This document shows positions 2,981 through 17,187 of a stretch of 36,487 nucleotides of DNA, in pieces (the stretch's first letter is position 1; each line of letters starts with the position of its first letter). The stretch lies in assembly GCA_028280905.1 (NCBI GenBank), contig JANQKW010000328.1, forward strand, positions 1 through 36,487, read 5' to 3'. The notes below the pieces were generated by a model. That model ran no database searches, was not told the origin of the DNA, and saw only the letters and a list, made by a program, of their open reading frames with translations. The stretch comes from Porticoccaceae bacterium. Lineage in GTDB: Bacteria > Pseudomonadota > Gammaproteobacteria > Pseudomonadales > Porticoccaceae. The translations under genes were made by a program, and so were the position numbers.

Positions 2981-3850
2981 ATGGCTGATAGAAAGCGCGA
3001 GAGTATAGTTTGTTGCCGAACGGTATTGGTTAGAGCACTTTGCATTGTGGTGATCCTGTTTGGAAGCACACTGACAAGCGCACAAGAACCTCAGCATAAC
3101 CATTTCAAGAAGCGGCTGATACAGGGTAAGGCGGCCGTGGGAACCCACTTGTCCCTATCCAGTCCGAAGGCCACCGAAATCGTGGCGCGCGCCGGGTTTG
3201 ACTGGCTATTCGTCGATTTGGAAAACACCGCCGCTGATCCCGAGACGCTGCAGCGAATTATCGGCGCGACCAAGGATGCTGACGCAGCGGTCATTGTTCG
3301 GCTGGCGGGTGAAGATCAATGGTTGGCAAAGCCTGTGTTGGACATGGGCGCTATGGGCGCGGTAATGCCGGCGATCCGCACCAGGGAGGATGCCGCCCGT
3401 GCGGTGGCGGCGGTTCGCTATCCGCCCCAGGGCATAAGGGGAATCGGCCCGACCGCAGCCGCGCGGCACTGGGGGATATCAGTACTTGATTATTTAAAAG
3501 TGGCCAACGATGAAATACTGGCGATGATTCTAATAGAACATATAGAAGCGGCGAACAACATAGACGAGATACTCACGGTGCCCGGGATCGACACGATTCT
3601 GGTTGGCGCGGGTGATCTGGCGGCATCAATGGGCCTGCTCGGCCAGTCGACGCACCCCCGGGTTGAAGCCGTCATTCAAAAAATTCATGCAGCCGCGAAA
3701 AAATCCGGCGTGCCAACCGGTGCGCTGGCCTATTCGCCGGAAGATGCCAACAGAAGAATTGCTCAGGGATTTCAAGCCATTCTGATGAGCCATGACGTGG
3801 CCTTTCTCAAAGCGGGTGCCGAGGGCGTTGTGGAAAAAATAGAGCGGTAG
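2981..3850 (+). CDS. HpcH/HpaI-family aldolase-like protein with signal peptide, catalytic His replaced (paralogue 2)
   Basis: Tandem paralogue of the preceding gene, 289 residues from the ATG at 2981. An in-frame GTG at 2942 would add 13 residues before the signal peptide and is less likely. The N-terminus has Arg/Lys residues, a hydrophobic core (about residues 15-32) and a good signal peptidase I site, LTSA-QEP, so export to the periplasm is expected. Retained HpaI-like positions are VRLAGED (Arg70), LIEH (Glu149) and VGAGDLAAS (Asp175). The motif that reads IDLEH in paralogue 1 reads VDLEN here, so the His45 equivalent is Asn. The protein may have a changed activity, bind a substrate without turnover, or be losing function. 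Both proteins keep the same HNHxK segment just after the predicted signal peptide, so the copy arose after export was acquired. Confidence 0.82.
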   Translation: MADRKRESIVCCRTVLVRALCIVVILFGSTLTSAQEPQHNHFKKRLIQGKAAVGTHLSLSSPKATEIVARAGFDWLFVDLENTAADPETLQRIIGATKDADAAVIVRLAGEDQWLAKPVLDMGAMGAVMPAIRTREDAARAVAAVRYPPQGIRGIGPTAAARHWGISVLDYLKVANDEILAMILIEHIEAANNIDEILTVPGIDTILVGAGDLAASMGLLGQSTHPRVEAVIQKIHAAAKKSGVPTGALAYSPEDANRRIAQGFQAILMSHDVAFLKAGAEGVVEKIER

Positions 3851-3886: not shown

Positions 3887-5545
3887 TCAGTTTATGGGTT
3901 GTTCCCAGACAATAGTCGACGCTTCGGAGTTAATAAGCGCCTGAAAGTGTTGTTCGGTTTTCTTTCGCTTCACTTTAAGCGTGGGCGTGAGCAGCCCACT
4001 CTCCATGGTCCACTCGTCAGTTGTCACAAAGATGCGACTGATCCGTTCGTGCGCGGGAAGGTTGCGGTTGATTTCTTTGAGGGAGTTTTCGAGGCGCTGC
4101 TGAAGGTCATTCCCTGCCAACGCCTGCCCGTATTCGGAGAGGCTGGCCAAAAGAGCGGGCTGGTCCATTCCGTGCCCGAAGACCAGTAACTGGCTCAATT
4201 CCGGCAGGTTGCCAAACTGCTCTTCCAGGTGCTCGGGATGAATAAACTTCCCCTTGGTGGTTTTGAATATGGAGCCCAATCGCCCGGTAACCCATAGGTT
4301 GCCGTCGTCATCAACATAGCCGGAATCGCCGGTTTTGTACCATCCATCCTCAATGACTTCCCTGGTGGCTTCGAGATTTTTATAGTACCCCACCATCAAT
4401 CCGTCAGTTTTTATCCATACCTCTCCCTCCTTGCTGATCTTCACATCGGAGACATCTCCGCCCTTGCCCACACAACCGGGGATGGGATCGGCATCCGCCG
4501 GAAAGGTAGCGCCCACGCCAAAAGTCTCTGTCATACCATATCCCTCACGCAGGCAAATGCCCATAGCCAAAAACCATTTCTGCAGCTCCGGGGCGAGGGG
4601 TGCTGAAGAACTGAGCACAAATCTGGCCTGGTTAAGTCCGAGGCTTTTTCTAATCGACTCTCTCTGTTGCTCATCGAGTTGCGCCTGGACGGCTGGCGGG
4701 ATTTTTGCGTCCACTCCGGCTTTGAATTTTGCCCAGAGTCGGGGTACCGCAAAAAAGAAAGTTGGCTGCACCGACTGGATTTCAGACGGAAAGCTATCGA
4801 GCCCGGCCGAGAATGAAATGGTGGAATTTGAATATAGGCCATTAAATGCGACCAGCAGCCGTTCTGCAATATGGGATAGCGGCAGGAATGAAAGCAAGCG
4901 GTTTCGCTCGCCGCTAAAGTCCGCATCTGCCACCTCGATCTTTGCCGATTGTAAGGCCCTGCCAACCAGTTTTGCCGGTGTGCCATAGGCATGCATCACT
5001 CCCTTGGGATTGCCCGTGGTTCCGGATGAGTAGATGATGGTGAATAACGCCTGCGGCGAATGTGATGGCGAGTCTTCCATCCGTTCAGTTGTCTGCAGAA
5101 TATCTTCCAGTTGGTAGTCGGCGTGTCCCTCGTAACCCCGAATCGCTACTCTATGTACGTCGGGTAGTACCGCGATATCGCTCTGTCCCATCTGGTCAAA
5201 CGCCCCGAGGAAAATCAGCTCCATTTCGCTGTGCCGCTGGATGTAGTGGGCAGAATCCATGTCCTGACCGGGGTAGATGGGAACGCTGATGTGGCCGGAC
5301 ATCATGATCGCCAGGTCGGCGACAATCCAGTCAGCGCAATTAGCGGACCAGATTCCTATCCTTGTTCCCGGCGACAGCTGCTGATTTTGAAGAAACGCCG
5401 CCAGGCGCCTGACCCGGTCCGCTGTTTCCGACCAGGTGTATTCGAGCCATTCTCCCGTTCCCAGCGATTGACGCAGGAACACCATGGACGGCACGTCTTT
5501 TTCCCAGCGATAAAATATATCCAGCGGAAGCAATGTGTTATTCAT
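3887..5545 (-). CDS. AMP-forming acyl-CoA synthetase (long-chain fatty acid CoA ligase type)
   Basis: ANL-superfamily adenylating enzyme that activates a carboxylic acid to its CoA thioester through an acyl-AMP. The AMP-binding P-loop IIYSSGTTGNPKG lies at about residues 167-179, the EGYGMTETFG motif near 335, and the hinge region YKTGDSGYVDDDGNLWVTGR at about 402-421. A C-terminal Lys in LTPTLKVKRK provides the usual A10 lysine. At 552 residues it is nearer the bacterial long-chain acyl-CoA synthetases than the benzoate or acetate enzymes; no membrane segment is seen. It is the last gene of a five-gene minus-strand operon, 31 bp after the DUF2855 gene. In this context it probably activates the acid made or imported by the neighbouring gene products. 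The exact substrate is not readable. Class is firm, chain-length preference is not. Confidence 0.92.
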   Translation of the reverse strand: MNNTLLPLDIFYRWEKDVPSMVFLRQSLGTGEWLEYTWSETADRVRRLAAFLQNQQLSPGTRIGIWSANCADWIVADLAIMMSGHISVPIYPGQDMDSAHYIQRHSEMELIFLGAFDQMGQSDIAVLPDVHRVAIRGYEGHADYQLEDILQTTERMEDSPSHSPQALFTIIYSSGTTGNPKGVMHAYGTPAKLVGRALQSAKIEVADADFSGERNRLLSFLPLSHIAERLLVAFNGLYSNSTISFSAGLDSFPSEIQSVQPTFFFAVPRLWAKFKAGVDAKIPPAVQAQLDEQQRESIRKSLGLNQARFVLSSSAPLAPELQKWFLAMGICLREGYGMTETFGVGATFPADADPIPGCVGKGGDVSDVKISKEGEVWIKTDGLMVGYYKNLEATREVIEDGWYKTGDSGYVDDDGNLWVTGRLGSIFKTTKGKFIHPEHLEEQFGNLPELSQLLVFGHGMDQPALLASLSEYGQALAGNDLQQRLENSLKEINRNLPAHERISRIFVTTDEWTMESGLLTPTLKVKRKKTEQHFQALINSEASTIVWEQPIN

Positions 5546-12900: not shown

Positions 12901-13096
12901 CTCTACCTACCTGGTTTAAAGAATAAAGTACTTGATCCCATATAAATAAGACTTTATGGTTCTAACGCTATATAGCGGCGCACCAGCATATATTCACGGA
13001 TAGACCGAGGGAATGGTGATATAGACATGACGGAACTTCCTTTCCCTACTGATGTTCTTCGAAAAAAATAAACTGGTTTACCCGATAATAATGATT

Positions 13097-13115
13097 ATGA
13101 GGTCGAAGACCTCAT
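13097..13115. repeat. Short perfect hairpin
   Basis: ATGAGGTC (13097-13104) and GACCTCAT (13108-13115) form an 8-bp stem around GAA, about 55 bp before the DUF1428 start. It could be an operator or a transcript end; nothing decides. Confidence 0.4.
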
Positions 13116-13169
13116 TAAACTACTGTTATACGGAATGCACAAACTTGGATAACAAATTTGGAGGGTCGT

Positions 13170-13562
13170 ATGACGAACTATATTGACGGCTTTGTACTAC
13201 CTGTGCCGCACGACCAGATAGATACATATAGAGAAGTCGTTGAAAAGGTTGCGAAGATTTGGAAGGAACATGGTGCGCTCGATTATTCAGAATATGTTAT
13301 TGACGATTCAAAGTTGGAAGGCACCCGATCGTTCAATGATGCTGTGAACACTAAAGAGGACGAAGCTGTAGTTTTCGGGTGGGTTGTATTCGAATCTCGT
13401 GAGGCGCGTGATCTTGCAAATAAAAGAGTCGCAGCCGATCCAAGGATGACGGATTTGATCAATCCACTGACTAATACATCGAGGCCGATCTTTGATGCTG
13501 AACGGATGGTGTATGGCGGGTTCCGGTCGCTTGTTCAATCACCCAATCAGAGCACTGTATAA
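13170..13562 (+). CDS. DUF1428 domain-containing protein
   Basis: 130-residue cytoplasmic protein of the DUF1428 family, a small alpha/beta dimeric ferredoxin-like fold. Recognisable parts are the N-terminal DGFVLPVP, YREVVEKVAKIWKEHGALDYSEYV, the central DEAVVFGWVVFESREARDLANKRVAADPRM, and the C-terminal DAERMVYGGFRSLV. The start at 13170 is chosen because GGAGG lies 5 bases upstream; a TTG four codons earlier is inside that site. The function of the family is unknown to me. Its TAA stop is part of the inverse core of an integron attC-like site, exactly the arrangement seen in gene cassettes, which suggests arrival as a mobile cassette. Confidence 0.88.
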   Translation: MTNYIDGFVLPVPHDQIDTYREVVEKVAKIWKEHGALDYSEYVIDDSKLEGTRSFNDAVNTKEDEAVVFGWVVFESREARDLANKRVAADPRMTDLINPLTNTSRPIFDAERMVYGGFRSLVQSPNQSTV

Positions 13563-13628
13563 CAAGTGCTTGCACTCGACATTTTTTCCGCTACGCTGCA
13601 AAAATGCGAGTGAACCAAAGCGTTAGGT
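13557..13628 (+). mobile_element. Integron attC-like recombination site
   Basis: A 72-bp site running from GTATAAC (6 of 7 to the inverse core RYYYAAC) to GTTAGGT (7 of 7 to the core GTTRRRY). Between them CACTCG (13573-13578) pairs with CGAGTG (13607-13612), and CATTTTT (13580-13586) pairs with AAAAATG (13600-13606). The single unpaired A at 13579 is like the extrahelical bases that guide integrase. The loop is 13 nt. TAAC/GTTA and GCTT/AAGC pair at the base. It overlaps the stop of the DUF1428 gene and ends 23 bp before the next ATG, as in cassette arrays. No integrase gene is present in the window. Confidence 0.75.
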
Positions 13629-13651
13629 GAACCAAAACCGAAGAATTCTCT

Positions 13652-14527
13652 ATGGAAAACAAGGCCGCTGAATACACCGTTTTGGGCAACTCTACGTTAT
13701 TAGGCAAGGAACAGCTAGGGTTCATACTGCTGGCTACGGTGCTTTCATGGCCGATAATGATACTTGTATGGGCAGGCTTGCCTCCAGATTTTCAACCTGG
13801 TGATGCCAAAGGAATAGAGGAAGCATTGGGGAGTTGGCCAATGCTGTTTGGAGCGGGGCCAATGTTATCGGCGATTCTTATAACAGCATTGTTTCGCGGC
13901 AAGACAGGTACTGTCGAACTAGTCAAACGTGTGTTTATCTGGCGAGTAAACCCTAAATGGTTTCTAATTGCTCTGACATTGCCCTTGATATACCAGTGGC
14001 TTGGGTTATCGGTTTGGGCTAGTGTCACCGGAACAGCAATCGACTACCCTGAATTATCAGGTTACATTTTCAGTTGGCTTCAAATAGCGGTGATAAGCGG
14101 CCTCTATTTCATTACAGAAGAACTAGGTTGGCGTGGTTTTTTGCTTCCTAGAATGCTTACTCAACATCACTGGTTAAAAGCCTCCCTGTATCTCGGGGTT
14201 ATTTGGGCAATCTGGCATTATCCCTATTGGTTGATATCATCTTGGGGTTATACCGGAAGTTGGACAGAGTCCGCCAGTATGGCGATGGCTTCCACAATTT
14301 TTGCAATATCGTTGTGTGTTATGTTGACATGGATATTCAAAAACACGAAAGGCAGTGTTCTGCTTGCAATGATTTTTCATGGTTCTAACAATGCGAACTT
14401 CAACAAAATGTTCTCCGTAGCTGGAGACGATGCGCTTAGCTTAAACTTTTTGGCAACTCATGCGTTCACGGCTGCACTGGTAGCTCTGCTACTAGTCGCA
14501 TTCGTAATTTTTCGACCGCTAGAGTAA
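13652..14527 (+). CDS. CPBP family intramembrane metalloprotease (CAAX protease-like)
   Basis: 291-residue polytopic membrane protein with about eight hydrophobic segments. It carries the three CPBP (Abi/CAAX) motifs: EELGWRG with Glu156, Glu157 and Arg161; WAIWHYPYW with His189; and IFHGSNNAN with His243. These residues form the metal site of the Rce1-like proteases. Bacterial members serve in bacteriocin self-immunity, maturation of peptides or unknown roles. The ATG is 23 bp after the attC-like site, with only a weak GAAG before it, a layout common for cassette genes read from an upstream promoter. No second attC is seen after its stop. Composition is A+T-richer than the flanking metabolic genes. 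Confidence 0.88.
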   Translation: MENKAAEYTVLGNSTLLGKEQLGFILLATVLSWPIMILVWAGLPPDFQPGDAKGIEEALGSWPMLFGAGPMLSAILITALFRGKTGTVELVKRVFIWRVNPKWFLIALTLPLIYQWLGLSVWASVTGTAIDYPELSGYIFSWLQIAVISGLYFITEELGWRGFLLPRMLTQHHWLKASLYLGVIWAIWHYPYWLISSWGYTGSWTESASMAMASTIFAISLCVMLTWIFKNTKGSVLLAMIFHGSNNANFNKMFSVAGDDALSLNFLATHAFTAALVALLLVAFVIFRPLE

Positions 14528-14540
14528 AAACGAGAATAAA

Positions 14541-14611
14541 AACGGGGTCAGAGACCATTTAGGTTTACTCGGGCATAACAGTGAAGCACAAAAATCGTCT
14601 CTGACCCCATT
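14541..14611. repeat. 71-bp inverted-repeat element of the GGGGTCAGAG type
   Basis: Two 20-bp arms (14541-14560 and 14592-14611) are inverted copies with 18 of 20 matches; the central 12 bp GGGGTCAGAGAC and GTCTCTGACCCC match perfectly. A 31-nt spacer separates them. From memory, closely similar GGGGTCAGAG palindromes are dispersed in many proteobacterial genomes, like REP or MITE elements. It lies between two convergent genes and could also stop transcription in both directions. Confidence 0.75.
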
Positions 14612-14626
14612 CTCCATGTGATATTT

Positions 14627-14824
14627 CTACTCTGCGTCATGCTGAAAAATGTCTTCTATGAACAAACCAAATAACTTGGCGGCTTTGAACGCCAAAGGCA
14701 AGCTAGGGTCGAACTTGCCTTTCTCTATAGCATTGATTGTCTGTCGGGAAACTTCCAACTTGGCAGCTAAGTCGGCCTGAGTCCAGTTTCGTTCGGCACG
14801 CAGTACTTTTAGTCGGTTTTTCAT
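14627..14824 (-). CDS. Small XRE/Cro-CI family DNA-binding protein
   Basis: 65 residues made up almost entirely of one Cro/CI helix-turn-helix domain: MKNRLKVLRAERNWTQADLAAKLEVS then RQTINAIEKGKFDPSLPLAFKAAKLF. This compact regulator type often sits beside a small membrane protein gene and represses its own operon. Its ATG overlaps the TGA of the upstream membrane protein gene by 4 bases, so the pair is translationally coupled. A palindrome overlapping the promoter of the pair is the likely operator. No toxin-like partner is recognised. Confidence 0.9.
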   Translation of the reverse strand: MKNRLKVLRAERNWTQADLAAKLEVSRQTINAIEKGKFDPSLPLAFKAAKLFGLFIEDIFQHDAE

Positions 14825-15246
14825 CGGTGTCTAAGCACTCCGATTATATTTCCTATAGCCATTCCCAACCCGGCAAGTACTGCTAACAGCGCTACTTCCC
14901 AGGAATCTATATGTATTAATTCCGCTGAGTGCAGTATCAACAGGCTACCGAAAGCTACCCATAGTGCACCCAAAGCCATTGCCATGGCCTCTAATTGTAT
15001 TTTTCGCTGCATTTCATCCAGGGTTTCGAGCAAGCGTATATGGGCTCTAATCGCGCCGAGGCCGATACCCACGTGAATGAATAGTGCAAAAATACCAAGG
15101 AACAATTTGGACGCCGGAAGAAACATGACGCCAGCGCAGCCCAATGGGATAGACACCCCCCATGCCAAAGACCAATATGCTGCGTACCTTGATGTCTTTT
15201 TCTCGCGAGCAGAATACTCATTAGGGTTAGCACTTGTATTGTTCAC
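14821..15246 (-). CDS. Four-helix membrane protein, partner of the XRE regulator
   Basis: 141-residue protein with four predicted membrane segments (about residues 24-44, 48-68, 86-106, 113-136). The conserved-looking stretch LLETLDEMQRKIQLEAMAMALG lies before the third. The start is GTG at 15246, supported by AAAGGAG 8 bases upstream. I do not recognise a characterised family. The pairing of a small XRE repressor with such a membrane protein is common in bacteria and the membrane partner may sense or modulate the regulator, but nothing here shows that. First gene of a two-gene operon under a probable autoregulated promoter. Confidence 0.82.
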   Translation of the reverse strand: MNNTSANPNEYSAREKKTSRYAAYWSLAWGVSIPLGCAGVMFLPASKLFLGIFALFIHVGIGLGAIRAHIRLLETLDEMQRKIQLEAMAMALGALWVAFGSLLILHSAELIHIDSWEVALLAVLAGLGMAIGNIIGVLRHR

Positions 15247-15891: not shown

Positions 15892-17187
15892 TTAAAGTGG
15901 TTGGGGCGCGTTTTGGGCGCGCCGTTCAATGGCGCCACCGGCGCGTATAAAAAAGGGCCCGATACAGGCCAGACCCAGGAACACGGTAAAGGTTAAGAAG
16001 GCCGCGTTGTAGCTGCCGGTATTGTCGTAAACAAAACCCGCCAGGGGCGAGGCGACGACCGCGAACGGCAGTTCCAGCCACTTTAACAGCCCGAGCGCTG
16101 CGCCGAGGGAGCGATTGCCAAGGCTGGTGGAGATCGCGAAGGTACGCATGGACGACAGGGCCGCGTAGCCGAACCCAAACAGGGAGGCGGCGACAAGACA
16201 TTGCCAGAACAGTGAAATTTGAGTGAACAGCACCAGCGCCAGTATCTGCGACACCAACGCGATCCAAATGGTGATACGGGCTCCGAGGAAATCCGCCATT
16301 AACCCGATGACCGGCTTTCCGATCGCCGATAGGATCGCCACCGTCGACAGCACCAGCGCCGCCCTCTCCGTTGTCAATCCCATATCCACGATGTGACCGA
16401 ACAAATGCACCATGATCGCGAGATAGACACAGACCATCGGCCCGAAAATCAATCCGATGGCCCAAAAAGTCGGGTTTTTGATTAACCCTTGCCAGGTCCA
16501 TTCTCTCTCCTCAAGGTCCGATTGAACCGGCCTGACTTCTGCTCGATTGACATAGTTGTGGCCGTCGCGCACTTCACCGATGTCTTCCGGACGGTCTTTC
16601 ATAAGAAAGTAAACCAGAGGCAGCAATATCGCTCCGGTGGCCAGCGCAAACACCAGGAAAGTTAGCCGCCATCCCAGCTCGTTGACAATTGTGTTAATGA
16701 TGGGCGGAAAGAAAATGCCCGCGAGAGAGGCGCCAAGAACGGAAATACCGAGCGCCCTTCCGCGCCAGTGATCAAACCAATTAATCACCACGCGATTGCG
16801 GGTCAGAGGCCCTATCAGGGTTATCCCCACCCCGAAAACAACGCCTTTGGCAAGGAAGAACTGCCACACCGACTGAACCCTGGCGATCATCACATAGGAC
16901 ACGGCCGTAATGACGATGCCAATCAGGATGGCCTTGCGCGGAGAGTGAGTATCCACAAATCGCCCCACCGCAGGGGCGATAATGGCGGCAACAATGGTGA
17001 CAATGGAATAGCCGAGTGCGATTTCACCGCGACTGCCGTCAGCCAGTGTGTCCGCCAGGTAAGGCAGCATAATGCCGTTGGAATAGGCGGAGAGTCCGGT
17101 GCCTAATATACCCATCATCACTGCGATGCCGACGATGTTCCAACCGTAAAAAACATTCCCCAACTTTTTAATGACGCTCTCCCCCAT
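15892..17187 (-). CDS. MFS transporter (oxalate/formate antiporter or monocarboxylate type)
   Basis: 431-residue major facilitator with 12 predicted membrane helices. It begins with VFYGWNIVGIAVMMGILGTG, typical for the OFA and monocarboxylate-porter branch, has the loop RFVDTHSPRKAILIG, and a long central cytoplasmic loop after KDRPEDIGEVRDG with WTWQGLIKNPTFW. Such carriers often move small carboxylates. It lies 176 bp after avtA on the same strand, so it may be transcribed separately. A 15-bp palindrome precedes the start. Given the 2-oxo and hydroxy acid enzymes upstream, import or export of a short organic acid is a reasonable guess. Confidence 0.88.
   Translation of the reverse strand: MGESVIKKLGNVFYGWNIVGIAVMMGILGTGLSAYSNGIMLPYLADTLADGSRGEIALGYSIVTIVAAIIAPAVGRFVDTHSPRKAILIGIVITAVSYVMIARVQSVWQFFLAKGVVFGVGITLIGPLTRNRVVINWFDHWRGRALGISVLGASLAGIFFPPIINTIVNELGWRLTFLVFALATGAILLPLVYFLMKDRPEDIGEVRDGHNYVNRAEVRPVQSDLEEREWTWQGLIKNPTFWAIGLIFGPMVCVYLAIMVHLFGHIVDMGLTTERAALVLSTVAILSAIGKPVIGLMADFLGARITIWIALVSQILALVLFTQISLFWQCLVAASLFGFGYAALSSMRTFAISTSLGNRSLGAALGLLKWLELPFAVVASPLAGFVYDNTGSYNAAFLTFTVFLGLACIGPFFIRAGGAIERRAQNAPQPL

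Follow-up and report, generated by a model that had tools for sequence, protein, structure and literature searches.

The window analyzed here, the whole stretch of 36,487 nucleotides from a Porticoccaceae genome, very probably contains a relic integron platform, which from its sequence consists of the remnant of an integron integrase gene (psi-intI), an attI site, a DUF1428 cassette with its attC, and a CPBP cassette. The layout is the standard divergent one, with psi-intI on the minus strand opposite attI and the array. We give an even chance to a broader proposal, namely, that the locus is one port of a multi-port integron in which one integrase, maybe repeatedly gained and lost, loads several dispersed attI ports lacking intI in the Porticoccaceae and their relatives, with an attI hairpin that is kept by compensatory changes and may be used in recombination or in a leader RNA. 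The features of the locus are as follows.

12919 to 13028, minus strand: psi-intI, what is left of the 5' end of an integron integrase gene: about 37 codons, split over two frames, and nothing of the remainder.
13085 to 13128, plus strand: attI, with the hairpin ATGAGGTC-GAA-GACCTCAT and the core GTTA.
13126 to 13622, plus strand: first cassette (497 bp), bounded by the cuts in attI and attC.
13170 to 13562, plus strand: DUF1428 family gene, 130 amino acids, with GGAGGG ahead of it (Pfam PF07237, E 7e-34).
13557 to 13628, plus strand: attC of the first cassette, the last 6 bases of which (TTAGGT) derive from the second cassette.
13623 to 14527, plus strand: second cassette, comprising the CPBP gene with no recognizable attC after it.
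13652 to 14527, plus strand: gene for a CPBP (CAAX protease/Rce1-like) membrane protein, 291 amino acids (Pfam PF02517, E 2e-13).
14541 to 14611, no strand assigned: palindromic element with 20-nt arms (GGGGTCAGAGACC...), from an inverted-repeat search.

The site at 13557 to 13628 is a genuine attC. Every letter that a first-pass annotation had reported for an attC-like site is present, with R'' GTATAAC at 13557 to 13563, R' GTTAGGT at 13622 to 13628, and two pairs of arms (CACTCG/CGAGTG and CATTTTT/AAAAATG) that leave a single unpaired A at 13580, and the cassette layout was also found as claimed, since the DUF1428 stop codon TAA (13560 to 13562) lies inside R'' and the CPBP ATG (13652) follows 23 bp past the site. 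The covariance-model search proposed at that time raises the site from attC-like to attC: model R1 matched it with 52.6 bits (E 2e-12 in 116 kb), and across the 3.74-Mb genome it was the top of 20 R1 matches (E 7e-11; these and the other Infernal E-values come from a shortened calibration). R1 was trained on 29 attC-like sites, collected by pattern in other genomes belonging to the order, aligned, and checked for pairing, with the window excluded; the training pattern also fits the window site, which makes the bit score circular to some degree in sequence, though not in structure. A search with the pattern RTATAACAAN{40,70}GCGTTAGRY returned 1 match in the genome and 0 in the reversed control. 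Integron integrases use the bottom strand of attC, and here the bottom strand folded with a z score of -2.8 (1 of 200 shuffles was equally good) and the top strand with -1.6. Neither an Rfam scan of the window at the gathering threshold nor a tRNA search gave a match.

Upstream of the array, an attI lies next to the integrase remnant at 13085 to 13128, where covariance model R2, built from attI sites beside the integrase genes of relatives together with a remnant on contig C20 of the same genome (window excluded), gave 58.9 bits (E 2.5e-7 in 148 kb and 6e-6 genome-wide). Its cut is expected between G13125 and T13126, and positions 13064 to 13128 share about 80% identity, across 65 bp, with the attI that adjoins the C20 psi-intI (TAATAATTATTATGAGGTCGAAGACCTCATTAACATGCTGTTA). 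On the L side the window attI departs from the consensus (TTAAACTACTG in place of TTAACATACTG), and only 57 bp separate it from intI, versus about 190 to 210 bp in relatives whose IntI, of the same clade, is intact; given this deviation and the shortened spacer, the window's own port may be dead.

The integrase remnant reads in two frames (MSISPFPRSIREYMLVRRY and YSVRTIKSYLYGIKYFIL, then a stop) with a frameshift near 12972. In a tblastn search with 28 IntI proteins, positions 13013 to 12972 were up to 92% identical to IntI codons 1 to 14 and positions 12972 to 12919 up to 89% identical to codons 14 to 31, for a joint E of 1.4e-6 against 0.02 for the best reversed-protein control. Strand and position are as expected for a divergent integrase gene, the broken end of which abuts a TonB receptor gene; the statement that no integrase is in the window therefore needs correction. 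An intact intI with the IntI-specific extra domain is absent from the window, where about codons 1 to 37 remain with the frameshift, and what is left, intI homology with disabling lesions beside adjacent att sites, is that of a relic, or pseudo-integron.

The joint between attI and the first cassette fixes the boundaries of the latter. Integration of a circular cassette at attI places bases of that cassette directly past the cut, and these should complement the R'' of the same cassette. The window junction GTTATAC (13125 to 13131), with its G|TT joint, is the exact reverse complement of R'' GTATAAC, and the two are both off consensus yet complementary, so the first cassette runs from 13126 to 13622, with its attC in the same orientation 431 bp past attI. 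The same rule, applied to the three variable bases, held at 32 of 39 attI loci with a downstream attC, compared to a mean of 2.3 and a maximum of 9 with shuffled partners, and 53 of 54 attC matches around attI loci fell on the array side and strand. The exact joint and the attC model match bear out the earlier suggestion that the DUF1428 and CPBP genes arrived as integron cassettes. The two are not ordinary neighbors either: among 58 genomes, the study genome included, relatives with a homolog of one gene do not overlap with those bearing a homolog of the other. Copies of the DUF1428 gene elsewhere in the study genome adjoin attC sites on contigs C20, C21, C111, and C269; a DUF1428 homolog in G007 and three others have no adjoining attC, so this family is not cassette-borne everywhere. 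The same four contigs (L025 to L028) carry near-identical DUF1428 cassette copies in their first ~240 bases, where the contigs end; a cassette array was probably broken there in assembly by this repeat.

The CPBP gene opens in the manner of a true second cassette, but R1 found no further attC in the window up to E 5. The palindromic element starts 14 bp past the CPBP stop codon; it is REP/MITE-like, sits where the second attC would be expected, and may have replaced or interrupted the CPBP attC. Beyond it, at 14627 to 15246 on the minus strand, an XRE-like regulator (65 amino acids) overlaps a membrane protein open reading frame (141 amino acids, no Pfam match), and the pair may represent either one more decayed cassette or ordinary genes. 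A synteny search for an empty site yielded none: relatives of the TonB receptor (63 to 64% identical) were found in three genomes, without linkage to other window genes.

The study genome holds several other integron parts. An R2 search located five attI sites, on C20, C250, C332, C401, and the window, and 12 of the 20 attC-model matches had an E of <0.01. The earlier description of the window site as a lone attC, possibly left from a lost array, thus does not hold for the genome, where cassette arrays are present on several other contigs (six attC sites on C212, others on C374, C99, C21, C140, and C111, and weaker ones elsewhere) along with four other attI sites. Several consecutive pairs obey the cassette rule, as in C212 (GTTAGAGC then GCTCTAAC) and C99 (GTTACGTG then CACGTAAC), and other consecutive pairs break it. 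Full-length intI is absent from the assembly, in which nothing matched above the TIGR02249 cut-off; as this is a draft (420 contigs, 3.74 Mb, 93% complete, 2.35% contamination), an intact intI may merely be missing from it. The top integron-integrase match is a broken gene on C20, adjoining gatB, in which codons 1 to 43 are fused to codons 198 to 278 and the IntI-specific stretch is kept. Integrase-like contigs C98 and C340 were rejected as other tyrosine recombinases, their matches being weak and piecewise and of a kind recovered likewise in 14 of 14 control genomes.

Ports of this type are shared by relatives. Of 80 sources searched, 39 contained the R2 element, 37 of these being intI loci of named genomes, and its hosts include Porticoccus, Marinobacterium, Methylophaga, Spongiibacter, Nitrincola, and others. 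Among 112 genomes of the same family, 23 carry attI of this type in 1 to 6 copies each, and 22, only in part the same ones, carry an IntI above the curated cut-off. The family is probably the Porticoccaceae, to judge from named relatives in this set: G010 and Porticoccus sp. W117 have identical IntI proteins. Across 54 attI loci (49 from relatives and 5 from the study genome), the adjoining intI was full-length at 7 and an N-terminal fragment at 21, and 2 loci fell at contig edges; none was detected by tblastn at 24, a class that includes very short stumps and in which absence means absence from assemblies. Within one genome, the 44-bp attI copies are on average 88% identical, compared to 54% for the adjoining 30 bp and 35 to 40% for the next 170 bp (ungapped).

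The attI hairpin, ATGAGGYC-NNN-GRCCTCAT (alignment A5: the window at 13085 to 13128, C20 [L025] at 2988 to 3031, and L117 to L194), has 8 pairs, 6 of which have changed on both sides; 98.7% of cells are paired in an alignment that was fitted to the structure, and no shuffle was as good. When 54 distinct 44-mers were aligned by length only, 98.1% of cells still paired, versus 17 to 52% with one side slid. To judge from these alignments, compensatory changes maintain the hairpin across the gammaproteobacterial integrons that have an IntI of this clade. It may serve as a structured site for recombination, as a hairpin in the 5' leader of the cassette mRNA, or as a terminator-like insulator before intI. 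A sigma-70-like scan of the plus strand from psi-intI to the DUF1428 start gave no match and is uninformative about a Pc promoter either way. Palindromes were seen in the putative integrase promoter region on C20 (GTGAATGATTCAC, L025, at about 3130) and on C250 (GTGAGCGATTCAC, L203, upstream of attI); these are not LexA-type boxes and are possibly a regulator site.

What bears most directly on the multi-port proposal is the behavior of orthologous orphan ports in sister species (L222, L218, L265, and L247, and L264, L228, L252, L227, and L248), at which 1.3 to 1.5 kb of upstream sequence is 90 to 97% identical up to attI while the first 900 bp of the array is unrelated, one pair excepted. In one group (G014, G384, G032, and G024), 1.5 kb upstream is 91 to 95% identical right up to attI, intI is undetectable in all four, and the first 900 bp downstream is unrelated in every pair. 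In a second group (G032, G058, G014, G388, and G024), about 1.2 to 1.5 kb of common upstream sequence ends in the same intI fragment and the arrays differ, with two ports having part of the array in common; two further port pairs behave in the same way. Because these ports share the loss of intI and carry different arrays, the loss is older than the present cassettes, and an integrase was therefore needed after it. Cassettes at these sister-species ports thus turned over at attI when the local intI was already gone, and the likeliest means is exchange by an integrase acting in trans; the general reading, that an IntI elsewhere in the cell swaps cassettes at ports without their own intI, appears to us moderately probable.

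The following sequence of events would account for the window. First, an integron integrase would have joined circular cassettes to attI, cutting between the G and TT of GTTRRRY and using the folded bottom strand of attC as the substrate; the chemistry of integron recombination is established, and the joints here are read from the sequence. The local integrase gene would then have been reduced to its first ~37 codons and frameshifted, and the attC of the last cassette lost. With intI in this state and the last attC gone, the locus cannot now move its own cassettes. Finally, such ports may be served, now or formerly, in trans by an IntI encoded elsewhere, which for the window's own port we infer from its relatives.

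A possible alternative, though on the doubtful side, is that the window and its counterparts are dead relics only, the leftovers of several integrons, in which attI has been kept for a cassette promoter, a 5'-leader, or a terminator hairpin rather than for continued use by an integrase. About half of the attI-bearing genomes lack a full-length IntI match at E 1e-40, including G021 and G024, which are each assembled in one contig; a minus-strand scan scored the hairpin, together with its AT-rich tail, as terminator-like; and nearly one third of intI genes have been reported to be pseudogenes, in a survey where 20% of bacteria had more than one intI (PMC2426708). This account is difficult to reconcile with orthologous orphan ports that share the loss of intI and yet have wholly different first cassettes with exact joints, and the junction rule is obeyed at many orphan ports. 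It is improbable that the multiple platforms are an artefact of misassembly or of binning different strains or organisms together, as the draft, MAG-like nature of the assembly (420 contigs, 2.35% contamination) and the contig breaks at DUF1428 repeats might suggest, given that attI is also multi-copy in the one-contig relatives G021 (three identical copies) and G024 (four copies) and that the window features are internal to a 36-kb contig. More improbable still is the earlier suggestion that an IntI placed these cassettes in a secondary (attG) site without a platform; such insertions are known (PMC12444791, PMC12901181), but here an attI confirmed by the R2 model and the stump of the divergent intI are found immediately upstream, so the cassettes occupy a primary attI and we rejected secondary-site insertion. 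The possibility that two ordinary genes simply have a chance inverted repeat or a terminator between them can be dismissed almost entirely, for although GTTRRRY alone is common (60 in the window versus 64 expected, a count uninformative in itself) and the folding energy alone gives z scores of only -1.6 to -2.8, the whole-site model match (E 7e-11), the uniqueness of the pattern in the genome, and the exact cassette boundary at attI all speak against it.

The locus can be placed by comparison with known systems. As in a sedentary chromosomal integron (intI, attI, and cassette array), intI and the array diverge, attI directly precedes the first cassette, the attC has the R''/L''/L'/R' organization, and the G|TT joints are exact; unlike in such an integron, intI is reduced to its first ~37 codons, one attC is left, and there are several attI ports per genome. 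IntegronFinder 2.0 work describes integrons as typically having one attI, with attI outside class 1 undetected (PMC9024848). The loss of intI by frameshift or deletion with cassettes remaining is also a feature of pseudo-integrons and inactivated integrons (PMC2426708), including Xanthomonas, with inactivated intI and stable arrays (PMC12444791), and Treponema, with integron remnants (PMC3607928). In those reports the loss took place at the canonical intI locus (in Xanthomonas with CALINs elsewhere), whereas here many attI ports are dispersed, most of them next to no intI or to its N-terminal stump, and ports that are orthologous appear to keep exchanging cassettes after the loss. A CALIN, or cluster of attC sites lacking an integrase, likewise has attC without an intact integrase, but we rejected this class because the locus has one attC plus an attI and the default is two or more attC sites (IntegronFinder 2.0.5 as used in PMC12444791). 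Extra attI-derived sites that recombine are also known from the delta-attI gene cassettes and attG of mobile integrons (PMC12901181), where attI pieces end cassettes inside class 1 arrays; the sites described here are instead complete attI with a conserved hairpin at separate chromosomal loci. The window thus very probably holds a relic of a kind already known, set apart by the multi-port pattern and by an attI hairpin that covaries; of this variant we found no description in the openly accessible literature searched.

If several ports per genome can indeed be loaded in trans once they have lost their own integrase, a platform without intI is not frozen, cassette genes could be expressed from several places, and many seemingly ordinary neighbors, such as the DUF1428 and CPBP genes, would be captured cassettes missed by annotation. 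The covarying hairpin would offer a handle for finding attI outside class 1 and a structure to probe.

Among the other ports of the study genome, the C250 attI has about the first seven intI codons readable by eye alongside it. On C332 (L204; attI at 2187 to 2230, also 4619 to 4691), the first genes encode proteins similar to a short-chain dehydrogenase and to a RibD-like reductase, and the contig also carries an MFS paralog 54% identical to the one at 15892 to 17187 of the window.
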